Shown in pieces: positions 48,371 through 62,600 of a DNA stretch of 64,000 nt. The notes below the pieces were generated by a model, which saw only the letters and a program-made list of their open reading frames with translations, was not told the origin of the DNA and ran no database searches. Source of the stretch: Heterostelium album PN500 (lineage: Eukaryota > Evosea > Eumycetozoa > Acytosteliales > Acytosteliaceae); assembly GCF_000004825.1 (NCBI RefSeq), contig NW_008805074.1:558001-622000 (forward strand). The letters run 5' to 3'. The translations under genes were made by a program, and so were the position numbers. How positions within the stretch are numbered: position 1 is the stretch's first letter; the number at the start of each line of letters is the position of its first letter.

Positions 48371-48765
48371 TGATACTATGATACAATCGAAAGTTAATCG
48401 TCAGAAAATCTTTCGATTTAGTATCAGCTAGCTTTTCTCAATCATAATCTTTGAACACAACACTTTTGACATTGATTCATATATTGTATACAATATATGA
48501 ATTCATTTGGGAGAACTTTGAGGGTAATCAAGTTCAAATAGAAATGATCAAAGATTTCATAAAGATATTCGATGGTCAAGTAAAGTGTCGCAAGATCATA
48601 CTATCAAAATATAATTTTAATAAATATGATCTTACAATCCAGTGTGTTCATTATGACTTTATTAAATATGTGCCTAATGGTACATCAAACATTAACTGTT
48701 CAATCAAAATTAACCAAAAACATAAAGATTATAAAATAATAAGAATAATAGAAAGAAATAATTAA
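48371..48765 (+). pseudogene. Truncated copy of the F-box/LRR-like gene
   Basis: The frame at 48451-48765 ends GTSNINCSIKINQKH...RNN and contains IFDGQVKCRKIILSKYNFN. It is collinear with the C-terminus of the intact gene at 57082-58683 (TFDGQIACRKIILVKFNFN, GTSNIDCSIKKNPK). Just upstream, 48371-48410 matches the start of that gene (TACAATCGAAAGT), then sequence like FVQSLALNTTLS follows at once. So most of the gene is missing by internal deletion. It lies about 960 bp from the 3' end of terpene synthase 1. Confidence 0.75.
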
Positions 48766-49724: not shown

Positions 49725-50803
49725 TCATTGAATTTTAGTTCTAAGTTCAACAAATATGGAATTTGGTGATTTATAATTTGGCTTTACTAAGTACAGAGCT
49801 ACTACCGCAGATACCATGGTATGAAAGTGGTCAACAATTTCAATGAACTCTTCTTGATCTTCTTTGTTTTTGAGAATTGGAATGAATTTTTGTTTAATAA
49901 GATTTTCATAAATAAAATATTGTTCAAAACAATTATCAAATTCTTTGTCCATGAAATCGAGACACTCTTGATCTGACCAATTGTTTTGAGTTTTCATAAA
50001 ATGGAAACTATTCATTCTTTCATCTTTTTCTCTGAGTTCTTTTTCATATGAGAAGACATCATTATAAAGAGCACAGATGTTTCCTGAATGATCCATTAAA
50101 CTTTTCCAAAGTGGATCAAGAATTATATCAGAGTTTAATCTTTTCATAATGAATATTGCACTTAAAGAAAATGTTGGTACCATTCCAATATTGTGTCTTC
50201 TCATATTGTAATATAAATTCATACTCATGTCACCATCTAATTTCTAAAAATTAAAAAAAAAAACCAATTTAATTATTAATAATTTGTTTATTTAAAATAA
50301 AATAATATTGAACTTAAACTTACCTTGATATTTTGCCATGGCATTAAATTATCAAAATAATCCATGAATGCTTTTCTGAATAGATTCATCAAAGGATGTT
50401 GATCTCCAACTCTGCATTCTAAGCTCTCATTTAAATCAAAAGCAATTCTTTCAAGTGGTGTAGCATCCTCTTCTAGTTTACCCAATTTGAAAATATTGAT
50501 TGCTCTATTGATTTGTTTCATTCCAAATTCCGGTTCATTCGTATCAATAAGGTCATCGAATATTACTGAAAAAATAAAGAATTGTGTACCCAATACCATT
50601 GACTCTTGATCTCCAGATGGCCAAATATTTCTTACAAACATTGAAAGTCCTTTGAAAATCTGTCTATATTTTTGACGATTTTCATCATTTAATATTCCAA
50701 ATTTCTCCATTTTTTCAATCACCATTTCCATGGGATCATTTGAGTTCATAGGTAAAGTCCAACTCTTTGGAGTTTTATCAATAATTTTTTGTAAAGATAA
50801 CAT
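49725..50803 (-). CDS. Terpene synthase 1 of the cluster
   Basis: Exons 50324-50803 and 49725-50243; 332 residues, intron phase 0 after codon 160. It has both class I metal-binding motifs: the Asp-rich FDDLIDTNEPE (about residues 82-92) and NDVFSYEKE, the Asn-Asp-x-x-Ser-x-x-x-Glu motif. Other shared blocks: MFVRNIWPSGDQES, LGTQFFIFS, PWQN, KLDGDMSMNLYYNMRRHNIG and RMNSFHFMKTQNNWSDQEC. These are features of dictyostelid terpene synthases, which convert prenyl diphosphates such as FPP or GPP to volatile terpenes, mostly during development; the product cannot be predicted. No transit or signal peptide. The C-terminus (RTKIQ) is three residues longer than in its paralogues. Confidence 0.93.
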
Positions 50804-51283
50804 TTAGAATTCCTTTTTGTATATAGTAAGTTTAAAATGAAAATTCTGTTTTTGATAAAAAATATTAACTTCTATTTCAAATACTTTTTGAATAATCATT
50901 TTGTTGGTACAACAAAGTACAGTAATAAAAATTTCCACTTTTTTTATAGATAATTTCTATCTGAACAATAGATACAAGTGGTTTTAAAACAACAGTTAAA
51001 AACATAATACAACAAATATATTCATCATGTAGCTGAGTTTAAATTTTTATAACCACCACATACATTTTTAAGCAAAAATTTAATCTCTTTTTTTTATTAT
51101 TATTATTTCTATTTCTAAAACGGTTAGTGTTAACTATTTTTGGATAAAAAGAGATTTAATGAACCAATAGTAAATACAATTATTTGTGTACAACTTGCAA
51201 TACCTCTAATAAGAATTAACTGTATAATTTCATTATATCCCTCTTCCTCCAAAAAATGAAAAAATTTTGTAAAAATATATATT
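50804..51283. other. Promoter side of terpene synthase 1
   Basis: AT-rich, no gene; runs up to the left terminal inverted repeat of the DNA transposon. Confidence 0.45.
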
Positions 51284-52107
51284 ACACCCAGTCATGATTG
51301 CAAGAAATTTGCTTTCTCATTTCCTAACTAAATTTGTGAAAATGTTTAAAAAAATTAATATTGGTTTTTTTTGAAGCTAAGTTATTAATATCTGTAGATT
51401 TTAAGATATAAATAAACAAAGTTATATTAAAATAGAATGTATCAATGCAATGGTATGTCGGGTTTAACATTATTTAAAAATTATATTATTATTTAGAAAA
51501 GATGGTGTTAATATAGCACTTTTAATAGGAGGATACAAAAGAATTAAGCAATATCATAGGTGTAACACCTCAGAGGATTAGTCAAATGAGCAGAGAAGAG
51601 AGGTTGATGGAAGCAATAAATGAAATTCAAAACGATACAAGTTTTAGTCAAAAGGAGCTCTCTCAAAAGTATGGTGTTTCTGAAAGTGAGCTATCCAAGA
51701 AAAAAAATAAGCTCTCCTTTAAGCCAAGAGGTAGATATCTCACCGAAGCAGAAGAATTAGAGATGAAAAAGATGATAGAAGAATCAAATACCAAGAATAT
51801 TCCGATAACGAAAGAGAATTTTCTAAATTGGGTGGTCGGAAAGGTATATGACAAATATGGCTATACAATAGTCGTCACTGGTCGTGACTGGTGGACAAAG
51901 CTGAAACAAAAATATCGATCTTAAAGTTAAGAAAGGTTAAGTTTCAAGTGAAGCCAGATTAAAAGCGGAGAAAGAGGCCGATATTCAAGGTTTCATCCAG
52001 AGAGTTCAACTACAACCAATTTAAAATTTCATATAAAATATTGTCAAAAATGAATTTTTTTTTTCAAGAAATGAGAAGTCAAATTTCTTGCAATCGTGAC
52101 TGGGTGT
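51284..52107 (+). mobile_element. Non-autonomous-looking DNA transposon with 40-bp TIRs
   Basis: The left end 51284-51323 and the reverse complement of the right end 52068-52107 match at 37 of 40 positions, starting ACACCCAGTCA(T/C)GATTGC. The 824-bp element encodes only a DNA-binding protein (next entry), with no DDE catalytic domain. The N-terminal HTH and Tc5/CENP-B-type second HTH point to the pogo/Tc5-like side of the Tc1/mariner group. Left flank TATATATT and right flank TATAATGC share only TATA, so a target-site duplication is not clear. It sits between terpene synthases 1 and 2. Confidence 0.8.
51586..51924 (+). CDS. Transposon-encoded HTH (psq/CENP-B-type) protein, no DDE domain
   Basis: 112 residues from the ATG at 51586; the frame is open upstream to about 51523 behind a possible acceptor, adding KELSNIIGVTPQRISQ, another HTH-like stretch. 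The visible fold is helix-turn-helix: SFSQKELSQKYGVSESELSK, then a linker (RGRYLTEAEELEMKK), then a second HTH as in Tc5/CENP-B DNA-binding domains (ITKENFLNWVVGKVYDKYG ... TGRDWWTKLKQKY). The frame stops where a transposase catalytic core would begin, so it may be the remnant of a transposase or a separate binding protein. Confidence 0.7.
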   Translation: MSREERLMEAINEIQNDTSFSQKELSQKYGVSESELSKKKNKLSFKPRGRYLTEAEELEMKKMIEESNTKNIPITKENFLNWVVGKVYDKYGYTIVVTGRDWWTKLKQKYRS

Positions 52108-52404
52108 TATAATGCGAGAATAAAAAAAAGCTGGATGAAATAACACATTTTATTTTAACAATGATATGAATTATTAATTAATTATACTAAACAATCAAAC
52201 AGGAAGTTATACCAATCAAAAATATTATTTAAAAATCTAAATGTATTGTATTTCATTTTATAAAAAGACTGAATTAAAAGCTATTATTATAAAAAGGTGA
52301 GGATTGGGGAATTGTTTAAATAAATGATGATCAATCTCTTTATTAGCAATTCATATTGTTTAGTTTTTATGTTGAACTTAAAAACTAAATAAAATATTCA
52401 ATAT

Positions 52405-53469
52405 TTAGTTTCTAAGTTCAATAAAGATTGAATCTGATGATTTATAGTTTGGTTTTAGTCTGTACATCATTAGTAAAGAAGACAACATTGTATGACCGAA
52501 TTCTAGGATTTGATTGAATTCTTCTTGATCTTCTTTGTTTGGAAGAGTTGGAATGAATTTTTTAATAATAAGGTTTTCATGAATAAAATATTGTTCAAAA
52601 CAATTATCCAGTTCTTTTTCAAAGAATTCAAGACATTCTTGATCAGTCCAATTGTTTTGAGTTTTCATAAAATGGAAACTATTCATTCTTTCTTCTTTTT
52701 CTCTAACTTCCTTTTCATAAGATAATACGTCATTGTAGAGAGCACCAATTTTTCCTCCACTTTCAATTAAACTTCTCCAAAGTGGGTCAAGAATTATATC
52801 AGGGTTTAATCTTTTCATTTTGAAAATTAAACTTATATAAAAAGGGGGTGCAGTTGCAAAATTATGTATTCTTAAATTGTAATATAAATTCATACTCATA
52901 TCACCATTTAATTTCTATAATAAAAATAACCAAATCAATCGGTTGATTAATAATATTATTAATTTAAAATTTAAATTCAATAAACTTACATTCATATTTT
53001 GCCATGGAACTAAATTATAACAATAATCCAAGTAAGCATTTTTGAATAGATTGATTAATGGATTTTGTTCTCCAACTCTAGATTCTAAATTATGAATCAA
53101 ATCAAAAATATTGAGTTCGACTGGTGTAGGATCATCTTCTAGTTTACCCAATTTGAAAATATTGATTGCTCTATCAATATATTTAATTCCAAACTCTGGT
53201 TCACATGAATCGATAAAGTCATCGAAAATCCTATTAAAAATAAATAATTGTGCACCCAATACCAATGACTCTTGATCTAAGGATGGCCAAATATTTCTAA
53301 CAAACATTGAAATTCCTTTTATAGTTGGTCTTATTTTTTCACTATTTTCATCATTTAATATTCCAAATTTTTCCATTTTTTCAATCACCCTTTCCATAGG
53401 GTCATACGGATTCATAGGTAAAGTCCAGCTCTCGGGAGTTTTATCAATTAGTTTTTGTAAAGATAACAT
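52405..53469 (-). CDS. Terpene synthase 2 of the cluster
   Basis: Exons 52990-53469 and 52405-52914; 329 residues; phase-0 intron after codon 160, identical in place to the other three copies. Motifs: FDDFIDSCEPE and NDVLSYEKEVREK, so the metal ligands are complete. It differs from the others in the first motif (Phe in place of Leu, Cys in place of Asn) and around residues 167-185 (LRIHNFATAPPFYISLIF), which line the active site in class I synthases; a different product is plausible. It is closest to copies 1 and 3 by eye (YDPMERVIEKMEKFGILNDEN). Divergent from synthase 3 across 1.47 kb. Confidence 0.93.
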
Positions 53470-54939
53470 TTAGAATTCTTTTTTTTTAAAAAGTTAATTG
53501 TTAATTATTAATTTTTATTTTGAATACTATAAGAAAAATAAAAAATATTATATAGAAGTCAAAGTCTCCAAATTTTATTTCTATCTTAAAAAATGTAATA
53601 ATTTATAGACAACATAAATATAGAGATTTTTGAGAGAATTTAGTGTGAGTCAATAAAAAATGGTACTATCTACACCACCAAAGTATACAATTAATTAAAC
53701 AATCTACTAATTTATTAATATACTGTCATTTCAATCCAGATTATTCATAATAAAACTGTAGATTTGAGAAACATAAGATAGATTAAACTTTTTTTGGTAT
53801 TATAAATGAAGTTGTAGGTATAGAAATTTTTTTTTTAAAAATAAAAATATTGATCTTAAATTATAGGTTTAAATTGATATTTGTCATTATTGTCCCTGTT
53901 ACAATATTATATTGTAAATATCATAATATGACAGAGTTATAGTCGGAAGTCATTAATAACAATATACTGACTCACTATAACATCCCAGGTTTAAGACTAC
54001 AATAAGTCCATAGATACAATTTATCACATAAAGATATCACAATAGTCACAGAAATGGGAGATTCTAGTAATTAAATCGTTCATAATAAATAAAGTTAGTT
54101 TAATAGAATTGTTTAGTAAAAAATTTCATTTTTTGGGAGGGATTAAATCATATAACAGAATTAAAGAAATAAAATTTTATTAATAATAAAGAATCAATAA
54201 AGAAAAAAAATTTGGTTGGTGGGTACAAAAATTTGTTAAAAATCTATAGAAAAACAAAAACAAAAATGACATATGCACATTTTTTTGTCAGATTTTTCTC
54301 TATCTCTATGAAGGAGTGGGTTAATGATTTGATTTTTTCAAATTATGAGGTGATATAATATTTGGTTTGCAATATTGAACGTTCCAAGCTACAGAGAAAA
54401 ACAAATAAAAATTAGAGATCATCCAAATTTTTTTAATTTTATTTTTTTCATTGGAACAAAACAAATATTTTGCTTTTTTTTTAAATAGTAATTTATACAA
54501 TATATTACAATTGAATTAAATTAGAAATATATATATATATATTTATTTAGTTGAAAAAAAGAAACATACAAAAAAATGAAAAATTTTATTAAATTTTATT
54601 TATTTCGATTTTTCATTGGTCAACTAACTTTCAACCTCGATATATTAGGAATGTAAATGCAAATGATATTTTAGAGGGAAATAATTCAATTTATTTTCAG
54701 TAGTATGAATTTGTTTAATCATCATTCAATAGATTTTTCTTTCTCTTTTATTCCATTTATAACAATTGTACCTACAGTTCAGGAGTTAAATATAATCTAT
54801 GATAAATAAGAATAATATTGGTTGATAGCAATTTTTCTTTTAAAAATATTTATTAAGAATCATTTATAAATATAATAAGATAAAAGTATAAATAGAAATA
54901 TTTTGATATAAAATATCCTTAGAAATAATAGAGTTCTTA
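53470..54939. promoter_or_regulatory. Shared 1.47-kb region between divergent terpene synthases 2 and 3
   Basis: No ORF of note. It must hold both promoters. It is very AT-rich with long A/T runs; I recognise no specific site. Confidence 0.4.
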
Positions 54940-55995
54940 ATGATATCACTACAAAAATTAATTGACAAAACTCCTAAGAGTTGGAGTTTACAAATGAATC
55001 CATATGATCCTATGGAAATTGTGACTCAAAAAATTGAGAGGTTTGGAATATTAAATGATGAAAATCGTGAAAAAAATAGACCAATGTTTAAAGGAATTTC
55101 AATGTTTGTCAGAAGTATATGGCCATCTGCAGATCAAGAATCAATAGTATTGGGTACACAATTCTTTATTTTCTCCAGAATTTTTGATGACCTTATTGAT
55201 TCCAATGAACCAGAATTTGGAATAAAATTAATCAATAGAGCAATTAATATTTTTACATTAGGAAAACTAGAAGATGATCCTAAACCATATGAAAAAAATA
55301 TTTTCGATTTGGTTCAGAATTTACAACTTAGAGTTGGAGATCAACATCCTTTGATGAATCTCTTTAGAATTGCTTTCTTGGATTGTTTTGACAATTTAAT
55401 ACCTTGGCAAAATATGAAGGTAAGTTATGTAAAATTAAAAATTATAAATATATTAAATAATAGATATTTTTTTTATTTTTTTTAGAAATTAAATGGTGAC
55501 ATGAGTATGAATTTATATTATATCTTAAGAAGACATAATATTGGTACGGCTCCAACAGTTTTTTTAGGTTTAATGTTCATAGTGAAAAGATTAAACTATG
55601 AAATATTTCTTGATCCTCTTTTGAAATGTTTATGGGACCAAGGAGGAAGAATCAGTGCTCTATACAATGATGTATTGTCCTATGAAAAGGAAGTTAGAGA
55701 GAATGATGTAAGAATGAATAGTTTCCATTTTATGAAAACTCAAAACAATTGGTCTGATCAAGAATGTCTTGAATTCTTTGAAAAAGAAATGGATAAGTGT
55801 TTTGAACAATATTTTATTCATGAAAACCTCATCATTCAAAAATTTATTCCAACTCTTCAAAACAAAGAAGATCAAGAAGAATTCTATCAAATCATTGGAT
55901 TCTTTCATAAATTGATATCTTCCTTGTTAATGATGTATTTAAAAAAACCAAACTATAAATCACCAGATTCCATCTTTGTTGAACTTAGAAACTAA
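54940..55995 (+). CDS. Terpene synthase 3 of the cluster
   Basis: Exons 54940-55419 and 55486-55995; 329 residues. The Asp-rich motif is Asp83-Asp84-Leu-Ile-Asp87 in IFDDLIDSNEPEFG; the second motif is Asn221-Asp222, Ser225, Glu229 in YNDVLSYEKEV. The intron sits after codon 160 in phase 0, with AATATGAAG|GTAAGT. Blocks QMNPYDPMEIV, FVRSIWPSADQES and RMNSFHFMKTQNNWSDQEC are shared with the paralogues. Third codon positions are mostly A/T, in contrast to the housekeeping genes. Its stop is about 170 bp before a copy of the CAGCAT-ended repeat. Confidence 0.93.
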
Positions 55996-56168
55996 ATAAA
56001 ATATTGATAATCATCTTATTCTTAATTAGATTTTTCGAAAAAGATTATAATTAATTAAATAGATATCTTTCAAAGAAAAATAGTTCTATATAGCACTGCT
56101 TGTATTAAATAAAAAAGTTAAATAAATCTTTTATCTTTTATTCATAAAAACATCGTGTAACCAATAAG

Positions 56169-56408
56169 TACAGCATAGATCGTTGTAGTGGTGTTGGAAT
56201 TGTCATTACACATACTCTCTCACTCTCTTTGGAAATGAATTCTTGAGTTACATTCTTATCGGGTGGACTGTAAGTACAGTGACATATATCTATTTTCTGT
56301 AATGCGTATGATGAATGAGCAAAGATTCTTCTTTTTTATTAGTCTGTAGAGTATGACTGCTTTTAGTATAAGCATAATAATCTACACCAATACTGCTGTT
56401 GTTGGTTG
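56169..56408. repeat. CAGCAT-ended dispersed repeat, copy B
   Basis: Aligns with copy C at 59331-59582: TACAGCATAGATC, GGTGTTGGAATTG-CATTACACAT, CTCTCTTTGGAA-TGAATTCTT, GTA-GAGTATGACTGCTTTTAGT, and the end AATACTGCTGTTG. Its right terminal repeat is degenerate. It lies between terpene synthase 3 and the F-box/LRR-like gene. Confidence 0.7.
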
Positions 56409-57081
56409 TTAACCCACTACCAGTTATAAAACTAACTGTAATTATAAGATCTTACAGTTTTCATAACAAACAGTATTAGAATGTATTTATTCAATCGTTA
56501 TTTCTTAATCTACCTGATAAATAAAAAAAGAGTATTTAATATTTAGATACAAAGCCTTGTGTTATTTAATCATTGACTAGCTAGTCAAATTAGTACTACA
56601 AACTACTATTAAATTCACTGACATTTTATATTGGTATGCTTCTTCTCTATCTACTTTATCCTCTAATTGTTATTTATTAAATATTAAATAATAATTTTTA
56701 AAAAATAAAAAAGGATGATTACAATGACAAAAAACTTAATAGTGATTTTTTAGTATATCAGCATTTGATTTTTACATGTGACAAAGTAATTGTATAGAAT
56801 TTACATTTAAGAACTGTTTCTATTTTGTTATTCTTGCTGGTGTTATAAAAAGAAGAGCTGATTTTATTTGATAGAATAGATTAAAAAAAACAATTATATA
56901 AAAACTAAAAAACTATTCATTTCAAGCTCTTAATTAAAAATATCTGAATTTTTTTGTTAAAAAATCGTATGGTCTTCAATCAAAAAAACAAAAAAAAAAA
57001 CAATCATTATTTTTAATTAAATATTAAATATTATTCAATATTATTCATTATTTATTTTAAATAGCTAAAACTTCATTGAAA
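56409..57081. other. Promoter side of the F-box/LRR-like gene
   Basis: AT-rich, no gene seen; A-rich tracts at 56880-57000. Confidence 0.45.
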
Positions 57082-58683
57082 ATGTTAAATCAAGATAAAA
57101 ATAACAATATTAATAATAGTTTTAGTCTTAGTAAAAGTAGTAGTAATCCAACGATACAATCGAAAGTCATTCTTCAGAAAATAATTAGACTTGCATTAGT
57201 TGGCCGAGAGAATATCAAAACTAATTTTAAATACTGGGTTTTTGTCAATGGTGGTCGATACAATTCAACAAACAAACCATTCACTATAAACAAAGAATTA
57301 TTCAATTATGCTTTCGTTTGTAAAGAATGGTGTAATATCATATCAAATACGTTCCTTACTGAATTTATATTAAGATACCCTTCCAATGAAAGTACATATC
57401 TAGATTTGCAAACTTCGGTTGGTTATCTTTCAAACAGTCGTTCTCTATATCAGCTCAATAGCATCAAAACTTTATATTGTTATGAAGTCCGCAAATACAC
57501 ACGTGATGAAGCGTCAGAGATGTTCGAGCTTCTTTCAAAGTTTAGCAATCTCGAACGATTGTATATATTCACTGGTGACATTAATCTAATAAGAAATATC
57601 ATTAAACGCAAACCATCATTCAAAATTCGATTGTATTTCAATCAATACGCCAAGGAGGTATCGCTTTTTGATCTCGACTATTCGGTTTTAGAGCGTGTGA
57701 CATTGGTTACCCGAGACTTGGGATATTGTGGTGATGGATATGATTTCGAACCGACAGAACAGTGGCGTGTCAACAAGATATACTTTGACTACGAAGGAGC
57801 CTATGATGAAGATGGTGACAACAATCATATTGCACATGACGAGCTCTTTGCAATCGAATCACTGAAATCCATCGATATCAGTGACTTTGATTACGTTGAT
57901 ATCAAAGAGTTAAAGTTGGCTATGAACGATCATCTTGAATCGTTCAGATGTTCATCGATACTCAGTATGTTTGGATACGATGAAGACGAAGATCTAGGTT
58001 GGACTTGTAGATGTATTGAGAATAGTGTTGACAATGACTATGAACAAATGATATCTGACAACAATCAAACCGATGATTGGATAGAGTTTTGTCAGAGGCT
58101 ATCAAAAAACAAAACATTGAAACATCTTAAATTGTCAAACTTTTGCTCGGAACACAAGATAGATGATCAATCTATATTGAAGTTAGTATCAGATAGCTTT
58201 GTTCAATCTTTAGCATTGAACACAACTCTTTCAAGACTTGAAATATCATGTGATATTCTTGATGAATCATTTTACACGATGTTTTCAAACAATAGAAATA
58301 CAACGATATACAAACTTACACTCTTCAATCTCAATAGCCAACATCTCCAATGGACAACCAACATATTGAAATTCAACAATCATATCAACAGTCTTGACAT
58401 TGAATCATATATAATTCCACATTGGTATAATTCTGAAGATCTGGATGGTAATATCCAAGTTCGAAAAGAATTGATCAAAGAATTGATTACAACTTTCGAT
58501 GGTCAAATAGCATGTCGTAAAATCATACTAGTCAAATTTAATTTTAATCGATTAATCGAGACTGTAGAAAATATATTAATCGAAGATTTACTTTATGGTA
58601 CATCAAATATTGATTGTTCAATCAAGAAAAACCCGAAGAATATATATTTTAATAAGATAAGATTAATAAAAAGAAATAATTAA
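57082..58683 (+). CDS. F-box/LRR-like dictyostelid family protein
   Basis: Intronless, 533 residues from the ATG at 57082 (a TTG two codons earlier is not used). After an Asn/Ser-rich start, residues about 70-95 (KELFNYAFVCKEWCNIISNT) look like the C-terminal half of an F-box. The rest alternates hydrophobic and Leu/Ile strands (SIKTLYCYEVRK, NLERLYIFTGDINLIRN, LKSIDISDFDYVDIKELK, TLKHLKLSNFC, TLSRLEISCDI, NHINSLDIESYI), as in degenerate leucine-rich repeats. If right, it is a substrate-binding subunit of an SCF ubiquitin ligase; this is an inference. Two decayed copies flank the cluster at 48371-48765 and 62072-62600, so this is the only intact member here. Confidence 0.75.
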   Translation: MLNQDKNNNINNSFSLSKSSSNPTIQSKVILQKIIRLALVGRENIKTNFKYWVFVNGGRYNSTNKPFTINKELFNYAFVCKEWCNIISNTFLTEFILRYPSNESTYLDLQTSVGYLSNSRSLYQLNSIKTLYCYEVRKYTRDEASEMFELLSKFSNLERLYIFTGDINLIRNIIKRKPSFKIRLYFNQYAKEVSLFDLDYSVLERVTLVTRDLGYCGDGYDFEPTEQWRVNKIYFDYEGAYDEDGDNNHIAHDELFAIESLKSIDISDFDYVDIKELKLAMNDHLESFRCSSILSMFGYDEDEDLGWTCRCIENSVDNDYEQMISDNNQTDDWIEFCQRLSKNKTLKHLKLSNFCSEHKIDDQSILKLVSDSFVQSLALNTTLSRLEISCDILDESFYTMFSNNRNTTIYKLTLFNLNSQHLQWTTNILKFNNHINSLDIESYIIPHWYNSEDLDGNIQVRKELIKELITTFDGQIACRKIILVKFNFNRLIETVENILIEDLLYGTSNIDCSIKKNPKNIYFNKIRLIKRNN

Positions 58684-59330
58684 TTTTAATATTTTACGTT
58701 GATCCTCCTGATTGTGAATATTCTTTCAAATGTATATTCAAAAGACTTTGGGATATTAATTACACAATCTATTTTTACCATGAGAAGTTCATGTGTCGAA
58801 ATAAATTCATTATAGAGTTTAACAATCTAGATTGTTAATTAATCGGCAAATGTTTAATAAATCTTTTATTCTTTAAAATTAAATTGTCTATTCACATTAA
58901 TTCCTATTTCTAAGTTATTTAAATGATTAAAATGGAAATAAGTTTGTTTGGAGTTGAATGTTGTCTGGTGATTGTTTATATCTTGACATTGTTTTACTGC
59001 AGTATTTACTGATCTATACAACAATTAATCGTGGTAGATTGCAGTCGAATTTACACATTCTAGTATATCTAAACATAAACTCGTTTCTATCATCTCTATA
59101 ACTATTATTGATTGTATATATACTGTTGTTGTCATAAATCATCAAACAAACCAACCTGATACGTTACCGCATAATTATACGGGTTCCACCACCAAATAGT
59201 TAACAGAAACTTTGAATAGAATACTGCGGTGTTTACTTGGAGCAACTAATCCAAGATATTCATTGAGAAGAGTCTGCATCGACAAAAGGGAAGCTGGCGT
59301 ACGAGCCACTACCTATTGTATCGTTGAACA
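58684..59330. other. Intergenic region
   Basis: No gene supported. A frame at about 59212-59412 opens without an ATG and overlaps repeat copy C; I cannot assign it. Confidence 0.4.
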
Positions 59331-59582
59331 GTGCAGCATAGACCAACTATTGCTTGGTGTTGGTATTGGCATTACACATATAAACACACTCTCCCATCTC
59401 TTTTGGAATTGAATTCTTTGAGTAGTAATATCTTATCTGTTAGCTGTATCTACACTGATATTTATCTCCTTTGTGATGTCTACAATGAAATAGAGCTTCC
59501 CTTTTGGTATGTCGAGAATGACTGCTTTTAGTGGAGGTAAAAGAGCAAGCCAATAAACACGAATGCTGCTGCTTGCGTTGTG
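59331..59582. repeat. CAGCAT-ended dispersed repeat, copy C
   Basis: Starts GTGCAGCATAGACC and ends GAATGCTGCTGCTTG; the ends pair over 7 bp (GCAGCAT/ATGCTGC). The body matches copy B at many blocks (see copy B), including GAATGACTGCTTTTAGT. It is followed by a terpene synthase relic. Confidence 0.7.
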
Positions 59583-60029
59583 ATTCTCTCCCTATGTATT
59601 CCCTAGTTTCGAAATGAATTCAATCGTTATTAATAATAATCTACACCTATTTATTGTTCTTTTTTAGTAACTAAATAGATCTATCCATTGATTAACCAAA
59701 ATAGCTCTATACATACTACAGTTATCATAACTCTGAATTAGTTTGTATCTTCTCTATCTATACAAACTAATATCATTGCTTAGAACTTCTTTAATAAAAA
59801 AAGTAAATAAAAATTAAAAAATGTGAAATTATAATTATAATTGTTATTGTTTGCAAAAAAAAACCCAACCTATAAAATTAAATAACACAAATATAAAACT
59901 TATATTTACACAATAAATATATTTTATTAATTAACTTTTCAGTTTCAATCAATAGCGTTAAGTTCTACAATTTCATAGAAGAATCTTGTCGAATCATCTG
60001 CTCTTTGTTCTAAATAAATCAAAAATATC

Positions 60030-60186
60030 TCTTTATAATGATGTGTTCCCATATGAAAAGATACTAAGAGAAAATGATATAAGAATCAATAGTTTTGATT
60101 TTATGAAAACTCATAACCATTGACCTGACCAATTTTTTTTTAACAATATTTTATTAATGAATCTCCATCTTTGTTCAACTCTAAAG
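60030..60186 (+). pseudogene. Terpene synthase relic
   Basis: The sequence CTTTATAATGATGTGTTCCC onward reads as LYNDVFPYEKILRENDIRIN then SFDFMKTHNH, matching the second metal motif and RMNSFHFMKTQNN of the intact genes; the motif Ser is Pro here. A stop follows (NH*PDQ), then part of the EQYFI region, a deletion, and CCATCTTTGTTCAACTC, which matches the SIFVEL end. Only about 160 bp of the second exon survive. It lies about 460 bp upstream of terpene synthase 4. Confidence 0.8.
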
Positions 60187-60214
60187 AATAAATCAATTTA
60201 ATTCATATCTTTGT

Positions 60215-60256
60215 TTTTGCAACCTCTTATTATTGCAATAATAAGAGGTTGCAAAA
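60215..60256. repeat. Perfect 42-bp palindrome
   Basis: TTTTGCAACCTCTTATTATT, then GC at the centre, then the exact reverse complement, with no mismatch over 42 bp. Confidence 0.95.
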
Positions 60257-60649
60257 CTTGCTTAACAAATTTTAATAGTTTGGACAAGGAACAAAATAAA
60301 AATATGTTACACATATAAATTGTTCAAAATATTTCTTTAATAAAACTATTTATCCTTTCTATCTAAGGTTAGATTTATTATACACTTGTCATTGAAAAAT
60401 CTTTAATAAGTAATTATGACAAATTAATGTAAAAAAAAAAGTGGGTTTACAACAAGTTTGTAGATATATAAAAAAATAGAATTCTTCAATAAGATACTCA
60501 TAAGTATTATATGAGTATAATATATTAAGTAATAATAATTTTAGTTTAATATTTGTAAGAGAAAACCCAACTATAAATTCAAAAAAATAGTTTATTTTTT
60601 TATAATTCCAATTTTCAATATTTTTTTAATTCAAACAAAATATAATTAA

Positions 60650-61712
60650 ATGTTGTCATTACAAAAAATTATTGATAAAACTCCAAAGAGTTGGAGTATA
60701 TATATGAACTCATTTGATCCCACAGAAATAGTATTTGAAAAAATGGAACAATTTGGTTTATTAAATGATGAAAATAGTGAAAAATATAGACCGTGGTTTA
60801 CAGGAATTTCAAAGTTTGTAAGAAATATGTGGCCATTAGCAGATCAAGAGGCTATAGAATTGGGAACACATTTCTTTATTTTCGCGAATGTTTTCGATGA
60901 CCTTATTGATACCAATGAACCGGAAATTGGAATGAAACAAATCAATAGAGCTATCAATATAGTTAGATTTGGAAAACTCGAAGATGAACCAACACCACTT
61001 GAAAGAGATTTGATTTATTTTTTTGAGAATCTAGAAGTAAGATTTGGAAATCAAAATCCAGTATTAAATCAATTCAGAAATGTATTCATTGATTATTTTA
61101 ACGGTTTAATGCCATGGCAAAATATAAAGGTATCTATTTATTTTATTTTTAAATTAATAAAAAGGACAAGTTATTTATTAATAATTTTTATTTTTATTAT
61201 AGAAATTAAATGGTGACATGAGTATGAACTTATATTATAATATGAGAAATCTAAACATTGGAGTAACACCAAATTTTGGTATTGGTGTTTTATTCACAAT
61301 GAAAAGATTAAACTCTAATATTCTTCTTGACCCACTTTGGAAATGTTTAAAGGAACAAGCTGGAAGAATCTGTGCTCTATACAATGATGTTTTCTCCTAT
61401 GAAAAGGAACTTAAAGAAAATGATGTAAGAATGAATAGTTTCCATTTTATGAAAACTCAAAACAATTGGACTGATCAAGAATGTCTTGAATTCGTTGAAA
61501 AAGAACTGGATGATTGCTTTGAACAATACTTTATTCATGAAAACCTCATCATTCAAAAATTCATTCCAACTCTTCAAATCAAAGAAGATCAAGAAGAATT
61601 CTATCAAATCGTTGATATCTTTCATAAGATAGTGTCTTCAGTATTAAATATGTATAAACAAAAACCAAAATATAAATCTACAGATTCCATCTTTGTTGAG
61701 CTTAGAATCTAA
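60650..61712 (+). CDS. Terpene synthase 4 of the cluster
   Basis: Exons 60650-61129 and 61203-61712; 329 residues. Motifs VFDDLIDTNEPE and NDVFSYEKELKEN are complete. The intron is after codon 160 in phase 0 (donor GTATCT, weaker than in the paralogues). It is the most divergent copy in exon 1 (IYMNSFDPTEIVFEKMEQFG, FVRNMWPLADQEAIELGTHF), while the block RMNSFHFMKTQNNWTDQECL is nearly identical to the others, so parts of exon 2 may be kept alike by constraint or gene conversion. Class I terpene cyclisation of a prenyl diphosphate is expected. Confidence 0.93.
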
Positions 61713-62071: not shown

Positions 62072-62600
62072 ATAACTCTTTGCGATCAAATCTCTCAAAT
62101 CAATTGAAATCAGTCGTGAAGATTTCGTCTATATCAAAGAGTTATAGTTGATTGTGAACGATCAAGTTCAATCTTTCAAAGCTGCGGCGATACTCAGTTT
62201 GTTTGGATACGATGAAAACGAAGACCTTTGTCGTTGCAGTTGTACCTATAATAGAGGACATTAAACCAATGATATCTAACAATAATCAAACCGATGGTTG
62301 GATAGAGTTTTGTCAGAGATTATCAAACAACAAAAAATTTTCATTGTCAAACTATTGTACCACAAGATAAGAGAACAATCGTTTTTCGATTTGGTAACAG
62401 ATTGTTTTGTTCAATCATAAGCATTGAACACAACCCTTTCAAGACTGAAATATGAAATGATATACTCGATGAATCATTTTATACGATGCATTCAGCCAAC
62501 ACAACTATAAACAAACTTACACTCTTCAATCTCGATGATCAACATCTTCAATGGACAACCAACATATTGACACACAAACAATCATATCAGAAATCTAAAT
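62072..62600 (+). pseudogene. Decayed copy of the F-box/LRR-like gene
   Basis: Collinear with about 57840-58390 of the intact gene: CTCTTTGCGATCAAATCTCT, ATATCAAAGAGTTA, TGTTTGGATACGATGAAAACG, AACAATAATCAAACCGATGG, TTGGATAGAGTTTTGTCAGAG, ATTGAACACAACCCTTTCAA, and CAATGGACAACCAACATATT. Several stops and frameshifts break it and both ends are missing. Confidence 0.85.

Follow-up and report, generated by a model that had tools for sequence, protein, structure and literature searches.

The 64,000-nucleotide stretch of Heterostelium album PN500 DNA analyzed here (C13:558001-622000, hereafter the window) carries four intact terpene synthase (TPS) genes, which probably form an old array encoding class I enzymes that act on a prenyl diphosphate and make terpene scents, with units that were later copied elsewhere and a rebuilt lid over the diphosphate. 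Since both the family and its expansion in this species have been published, the cluster alone adds little: the genes are real, and they are almost surely among the 19 TPS genes reported for H. album, 14 of them in a clade of the species' own (PMC6156593). What appears to be new is the loss of the lid Trp and Arg in enzymes that keep their Mg-binding motifs and pyrophosphate sensor. No report of these substitutions was found in the literature searched, which was available as partial texts, and the available part of PMC6156593 mentions neither the array nor the exported units, the relics or the lid substitutions.

The four genes (Table 1) follow one another within 49725-61712 in the orientations -,-,+,+, and their reading frames are intact. 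Each encodes an Asp-rich motif, DD[LF]ID, at residue 83 and an NSE triad, NDV[FL]SYEKE, at residue 221, and each is interrupted after codon 160 by a single GT-AG phase-0 intron of 66-80 nt. The proteins, encoded within 12 kb, are 65.0-74.5% identical to one another and match the PF19086 profile with E values from 3.3e-19 to 9.4e-27. All four have the pyrophosphate sensor Arg175, located 46 residues before the NSE triad, and Asn238, the usual Asn 8 or 9 residues after it. An α-helical class I fold is predicted from a structure model, made for TPS3 only in its deposited form, and from its matches; the best matches, by sequence as well as by fold, are sesquiterpene cyclases. The bacterial pentalenene and T-muurolol synthases share the fold, the Mg-binding motifs and the sensor. 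These gene models agree with an earlier, sequence-only reading of the window, which had described four intact genes of 329-332 residues with these motifs and this intron, and had placed them in the dictyostelid TPS family, which is also supported. The deposited models, however, lack their starts: PPL_10201 (311 residues) is TPS3 without its first 18 residues, and PPL_10203 (298 residues) is TPS4 without its first 31, which is why cloning either as annotated would yield a truncated protein.

Table 1. Terpene synthase genes, copied units and other elements of the window (window coordinates)
Feature	Position	Strand	Exons	Length	Remarks
TPS1	49725..50803	-	50803-50324 + 50243-49725	332 aa	closest copies C4 and C15, on other contigs
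TPS2	52405..53469	-	53469-52990 + 52914-52405	329 aa	closest copy C13d, C13:744053-745114
TPS3	54940..55995	+	54940-55419 + 55486-55995	329 aa	deposited as PPL_10201
TPS4	60650..61712	+	60650-61129 + 61203-61712	329 aa	deposited as PPL_10203
TPS1 upstream region moved with the gene	50804..51190	-			blastn: common to C4 and the C13d block, partly to C15
TPS2 unit (gene and flanks)	52154..53632	-			90% identical to the C13d locus
Degenerate DNA transposon in the TPS2-TPS1 spacer	51280..52111	.			53-nt inverted ends, 85% complementary
TPS relic, exon-2 fragment with internal deletions	60025..60161	+			similarity to exon 2 of TPS3 and TPS4

The lid was compared across the whole genome (32.9 Mb, 39 contigs), in which the PF19086 cut-off is passed at 20 places, with broken fragments on top. 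Copies outside the window are named by contig: C4, C15, C7a, C7b, C13d, C11, C9, C10, C33, C25, C24, C30 (which is PpTPS18), C4b, C17, C28 and C30b. Twelve copies, TPS1-TPS4 together with C4, C15, C7a, C7b, C13d, C11, C9 and C33, make up what we call the crown group; the lid residues of eleven were read from the alignment and those of C33 from its raw frame. PMC8450962 lists the usual anchor residues of class I microbial TPSs as common rather than defining. In all twelve crown copies, the lid Trp, six residues before the RY pair, is replaced by Leu or Met at position 310, and the Arg of the pair by Asn, Ser or Lys at position 316, with Tyr317 kept. The window enzymes have Leu or Met at 310, Asn, Asn, Asn and Lys at 316 (TPS1 to TPS4) and Tyr317 in every case. 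The same twelve (12 of 12) also share Tyr311, a basic residue (Lys or Arg) at 314, and Lys318. The Mg-binding motifs and the sensor are retained throughout, save for one Asp of the first motif in C33. In the 20 rows other than the crown, C10, C25 and C24, Trp310 is present in all 19 with a letter at that position, and Arg316 in 18 of 19, the exception being C4b with His. The loss was stepwise along the tree: C24 has Trp310 with Arg-Tyr, C25 Trp310 with Arg-Phe and C10 Trp310 with Lys316. C10 also has Tyr311, Lys/Arg314 and Lys318, and C25 has Lys318. The single-exon H. album enzymes C17, C28 and C30b keep Arg-Tyr and have Phe at the place of the Trp.

Another of the usual anchors, the salt bridge between helices F and G (positions 141 and 189), is missing from every one of the 15 rows of the crown, C10, C25 and C24; TPS1 to TPS4 have Leu, Leu, Leu and Gln at 141 and Ala, Leu, Leu and Val at 189. 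Among the 20 other rows, Arg141 is found in all 19 with a letter and Glu189 in all 20. As for the pocket, whose lining was judged by alignment to pentalenene synthase, residues 79 and 80, which correspond to Phe76 and Phe77 of that enzyme, are small, polar, charged or aliphatic in the eleven aligned crown copies, Phe being kept only at 79 of C11. The crown therefore differs from the bacterial sesquiterpene synthases in lacking the lid Trp and Arg, and from pentalenene synthase also in the replacement of its Phe pair. Pocket differences between the window copies, claimed earlier, are borne out, and the FDDFIDSCEPE stretch singled out in TPS2 is present, but most of the differences of TPS2 are common to its copy C13d. 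We also considered a Met-lined pocket as in hydropyrene synthase (PMC13244428), as residue 310 is Met in seven of the eleven aligned crown copies. It is not claimed here, since the Met content is not consistently raised (3.0-6.3% in the crown versus 3.4-4.6% in four canonical rows).

Bacterial relatives served as a control for the lid. One scan gave 10 relatives, and a total of 82 loci was reached with family searches in six genomes and in samples of 151, 98 and 145 genomes, of which 17, 19 and 7, respectively, had matches. After filtering, 49 domains from 47 loci were retained, 35 of the 82 loci, duplicates included, giving no domain. Some of the domains are paired within one reading frame, as in geosmin synthases. 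The main count excludes ten domains in which no sensor Arg stands exactly at -46. The exact W-x5-RY is found in 36 of the remaining 39; in the other three, Trp and Arg are present but one residue farther apart, one of these domains having Phe for Tyr. Across all 49 domains, W-x5/6-R[YF] occurs in 45, and the other four are also without the sensor Arg at -46. Consequently, loss of both lid residues with sensor and metal motifs kept is seen in all 12 crown copies (C33 having lost one Asp of the first motif), but in none of the 39 bacterial domains, a sample neither random nor large, and in none of the 19 other rows of dictyostelid type. At fixed offsets, both partners of the F-G salt bridge are found in 20 of the 39 bacterial domains, the acidic one in 35 and neither in 3; since we hold the bacterial Arg offset to be unreliable across indels, our statement on the salt bridge rests on the dictyostelid alignment.

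Of the 35 rows of the protein tree, 17 are H. album loci; the other 18 comprise 16 proteins named to other dictyostelids and two EukProt entries without a name. C17, C28 and C30b were excluded from the trees. The four window copies and ten others form one clade (100/99), with C24 adjoining (100/99), in a tree that holds no other Heterostelium genome. This 14-copy clade, apart from all 18 other proteins, upholds the lineage-specific group of the earlier reading and may correspond to clade III of H. album (there P. pallidum) in Chen et al. 2018 (PMC6156593), which has the same species, the same family and a species-own clade of 14 copies. The placement that the earlier reading had named as refuting it, with the window copies beside different orthologues of other species, is not seen either: their closest kin are further H. 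album copies. C4 and C15 are the partners of TPS1 (100/97), and C13d is that of TPS2 (100/100). TPS3 adjoins TPS2 and C13d (89/75 in the protein tree, 96/97 in the coding-sequence tree), and TPS4 joins C7a and C7b (96/84 and 91/88, respectively), with C9 added in exon 1 (85/92). Synonymous divergence (dS) and the ratio of nonsynonymous to synonymous divergence (dN/dS) were obtained from Nei-Gojobori counts, without the values of C33, whose exon 2 is misregistered. Window pairs have a dS of 0.45-0.54 and a dN/dS of 0.28-0.40. The dS is 0.105 for TPS1-C4, 0.125 for TPS1-C15 and 0.082 for TPS2-C13d; the TPS4-C7a pair is also old (0.434). Because the window pairs are so much more diverged than the exported ones, the array appears to be old and two of its units to have been copied later. 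The intron was inherited and is no mark of these copies. The distant paralogue C24 has one at the corresponding place (its exon 1 is 477 nt long), so the intron says nothing about recency, and the deposited PpTPS18 protein has its exon junction at this position as well.

The copied units extend beyond the coding sequences, and their flanks are in line with this later copying. Homology between TPS1 and C4 reaches ~390 nt upstream of the start. At the C13d locus, the TPS2-like copy is followed directly by the TPS1 upstream region and a truncated exon 1, which indicates that a TPS2-TPS1 block was copied ~133 kb along the same contig. Export, the direction of which we infer to be from the array to elsewhere, would have carried a gene with a few hundred bases upstream, TPS1-like units going to two contigs and the TPS2-TPS1 block to its place ~133 kb away.

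We take the crown copies for active cyclases with a rebuilt lid. A prenyl diphosphate, probably farnesyl diphosphate and perhaps also geranyl or geranylgeranyl diphosphate, would be bound via three Mg ions held by the DDxxD motif and the NSE triad. It would then be ionized and the cation folded in a pocket that differs between copies, and the window enzymes may release different products, during development if they are expressed then, as we presume. When hydropyrene synthase closes, the RY Arg forms a bridge to the Asp-rich motif, and the diphosphate analogue is bound by the Tyr (PMC13244428). In the crown lid, with the Trp and Arg of W-x5-RY gone, Tyr311, Lys/Arg314 and Lys318 stand beside Tyr317, which would keep its role while Lys/Arg314 or Lys318 would replace the Arg. 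A parallel in the cited work is SmTS1, a sestermobaraene synthase in which, as in the crown, usually conserved residues including the lid Trp are naturally replaced; but SmTS1 has changed metal motifs and sensor and Phe for the Trp, whereas the crown keeps both and has lost the lid Trp and Arg (PMC8450962). TPSs of D. discoideum and D. purpureum have been shown to be active on prenyl diphosphates, and PpTPS18, outside the 14-copy clade, is the only H. album TPS assayed according to the available text (PMC6156593).

The cluster had been read from sequence as a recent local expansion, in which the four copies would be each other's closest relatives. Their proximity, similar proteins and common intron would fit tandem duplication, as would their place inside an H. 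album-only clade and the grouping of TPS2 with TPS3, although together with C13d. Yet a clade of the four alone is rejected (approximately unbiased test, p 8.8e-58), TPS1 and TPS2 have their closest copies beyond the cluster, the window copies differ from one another by a dS of 0.45-0.54 and the intron is inherited. "Recent" is already refuted on these data, and we give this scenario hardly any credence. Several observations also weigh against an old array with a rebuilt lid. The four window copies with C4, C15 and C13d as one group are not clearly rejected (p 0.0515), and the place of TPS4 beside C7a and C7b is starred in the protein tree only and left open by exon 2. Copies younger than the array have a higher dN/dS (0.54 for TPS2-C13d, 0.46 for C7a-C7b). 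Ages from dS presume the absence of gene conversion; longest identical runs, a weak test, gave no convincing tract, the smallest p being 0.007, uncorrected, over 45 pairs of 10 copies, and 0.043 for the six window pairs. Moreover, SmTS1, a sesterterpene synthase, is active though without other conserved residues (PMC8450962), so lid changes need not change the chemistry. Finally, decay continues in the crown, because three of its 12 copies are broken: C7b by a frameshift, C11 by a stop just before the NSE triad and C33 by several lesions. Outside the crown, C25 has a frame break; sequencing error could be a source of the lesions in all four.

These broken copies, and further relics in the genome, would suit a crown that is losing its function altogether, the missing lid Trp and Arg and F-G salt bridge being early decay and the intact frames merely young. 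But nine crown copies have intact frames, dN/dS is below 1 in all tested pairs of intact copies (0.24-0.54), and the Mg motifs and sensor persist in all twelve save for the DD of C33. Despite a dS of ~0.5 between copies, Tyr311 and Lys318 are invariant, and residue 314 is always basic. Plain decay, which we consider unlikely, is thus spoken against by the constraint on the intact copies and by the invariant new lid residues. The fold might instead have turned to another reaction of prenyl diphosphates, such as prenyl transfer, for which the lid need not seal a cation cascade. Loss of the lid Trp and Arg from proteins that retain the Mg motifs and the sensor is compatible with this, and the distant matches to solved structures include an N-prenyltransferase of this fold (9m1w, E 1e-4). 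The best sequence and fold matches, however, are sesquiterpene cyclases, and all assayed dictyostelid TPSs named in the available text of PMC6156593 make terpenes; a change of reaction seems to us quite improbable, less likely even than decay.

Other elements lie between and around the four genes. The transposon in the TPS2-TPS1 spacer contains an open reading frame (51529-51924) with a marginal HTH_psq match, and there are nine further genome matches to its end outside this element; it is absent from the equivalent TPS2-TPS1 junction beside C13d. A longer relative is present at C11:194195-196380, with both ends ~2.2 kb apart. Between TPS3 and TPS4 lies a gene without Pfam match (57082-58683, +), flanked by a direct repeat (56181-56370 and 59355-59532; 72% over 190 columns). 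Copying of this gene along with its TPS neighbours is possible, because degraded or partial relatives sit after TPS4 (62076-62569, 47-76% identical) and before TPS1 (48511-48762, 51% identical). The previously proposed relic before TPS4 is real and is an exon-2 fragment: a 104-nt segment (60029-60132) shows 81% identity to exon 2 of TPS3 and 83% to that of TPS4, an additional 25-nt match lies at 60137-60161, and the local alignment scores 195.5, whereas 200 shuffles reached at most 124.5. Its proposed end at 60186, however, is supported only by eye. On contig C15, the deposited protein PPL_10493 (C15:309313-310885) seems to run the end of the intact C15 TPS together with an adjoining TPS relic; read from the genome, the frame encodes a normal enzyme of 332 aa.

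The absence of clustered cytochrome P450 or prenyltransferase genes, also noted earlier, extends to the contig: among the best candidates, none of 76 PF00067 (P450) and none of 13 PF00348 (prenyl synthase) matches is on C13. In Dictyostelium, clustered TPS genes likewise occur, including a tandem pair mentioned for D. purpureum, but the DdTPS8-CYP521A1 cluster includes a P450 gene (PMC6524965). Elsewhere in the H. album genome, an array of P450 matches (672691-684269) is followed directly by a single-exon TPS (match 684800-685354, +) at C28:672691-685354, a candidate TPS-P450 biosynthetic cluster. At C33:132637-136521, a broken TPS copy and a TPS fragment adjoin a polyprenyl synthase gene (PF00348, 135559-136521), and these remnants are ~23 kb from P450 matches (a second C33 region, 159254-167283).

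With anchor and lid residues lost step by step in one genome, C24, C25, C10 and the crown offer a natural series in which to ask what conserved residues a class I TPS requires, and among the near copies TPS1, C4 and C15, or TPS2 and C13d, a change of product could be tied to few substitutions. A bolder proposal, which we put forward as possible though doubtful, is that H. album evolved and then multiplied a TPS subfamily that closes its active site differently, Tyr311, Lys/Arg314, Tyr317 and Lys318 having taken over the capture of the diphosphate once the F-G salt bridge had already been lost. If true, a different product chemistry, for example one more water-quenched or less cyclized, would lie behind the species-specific expansion.

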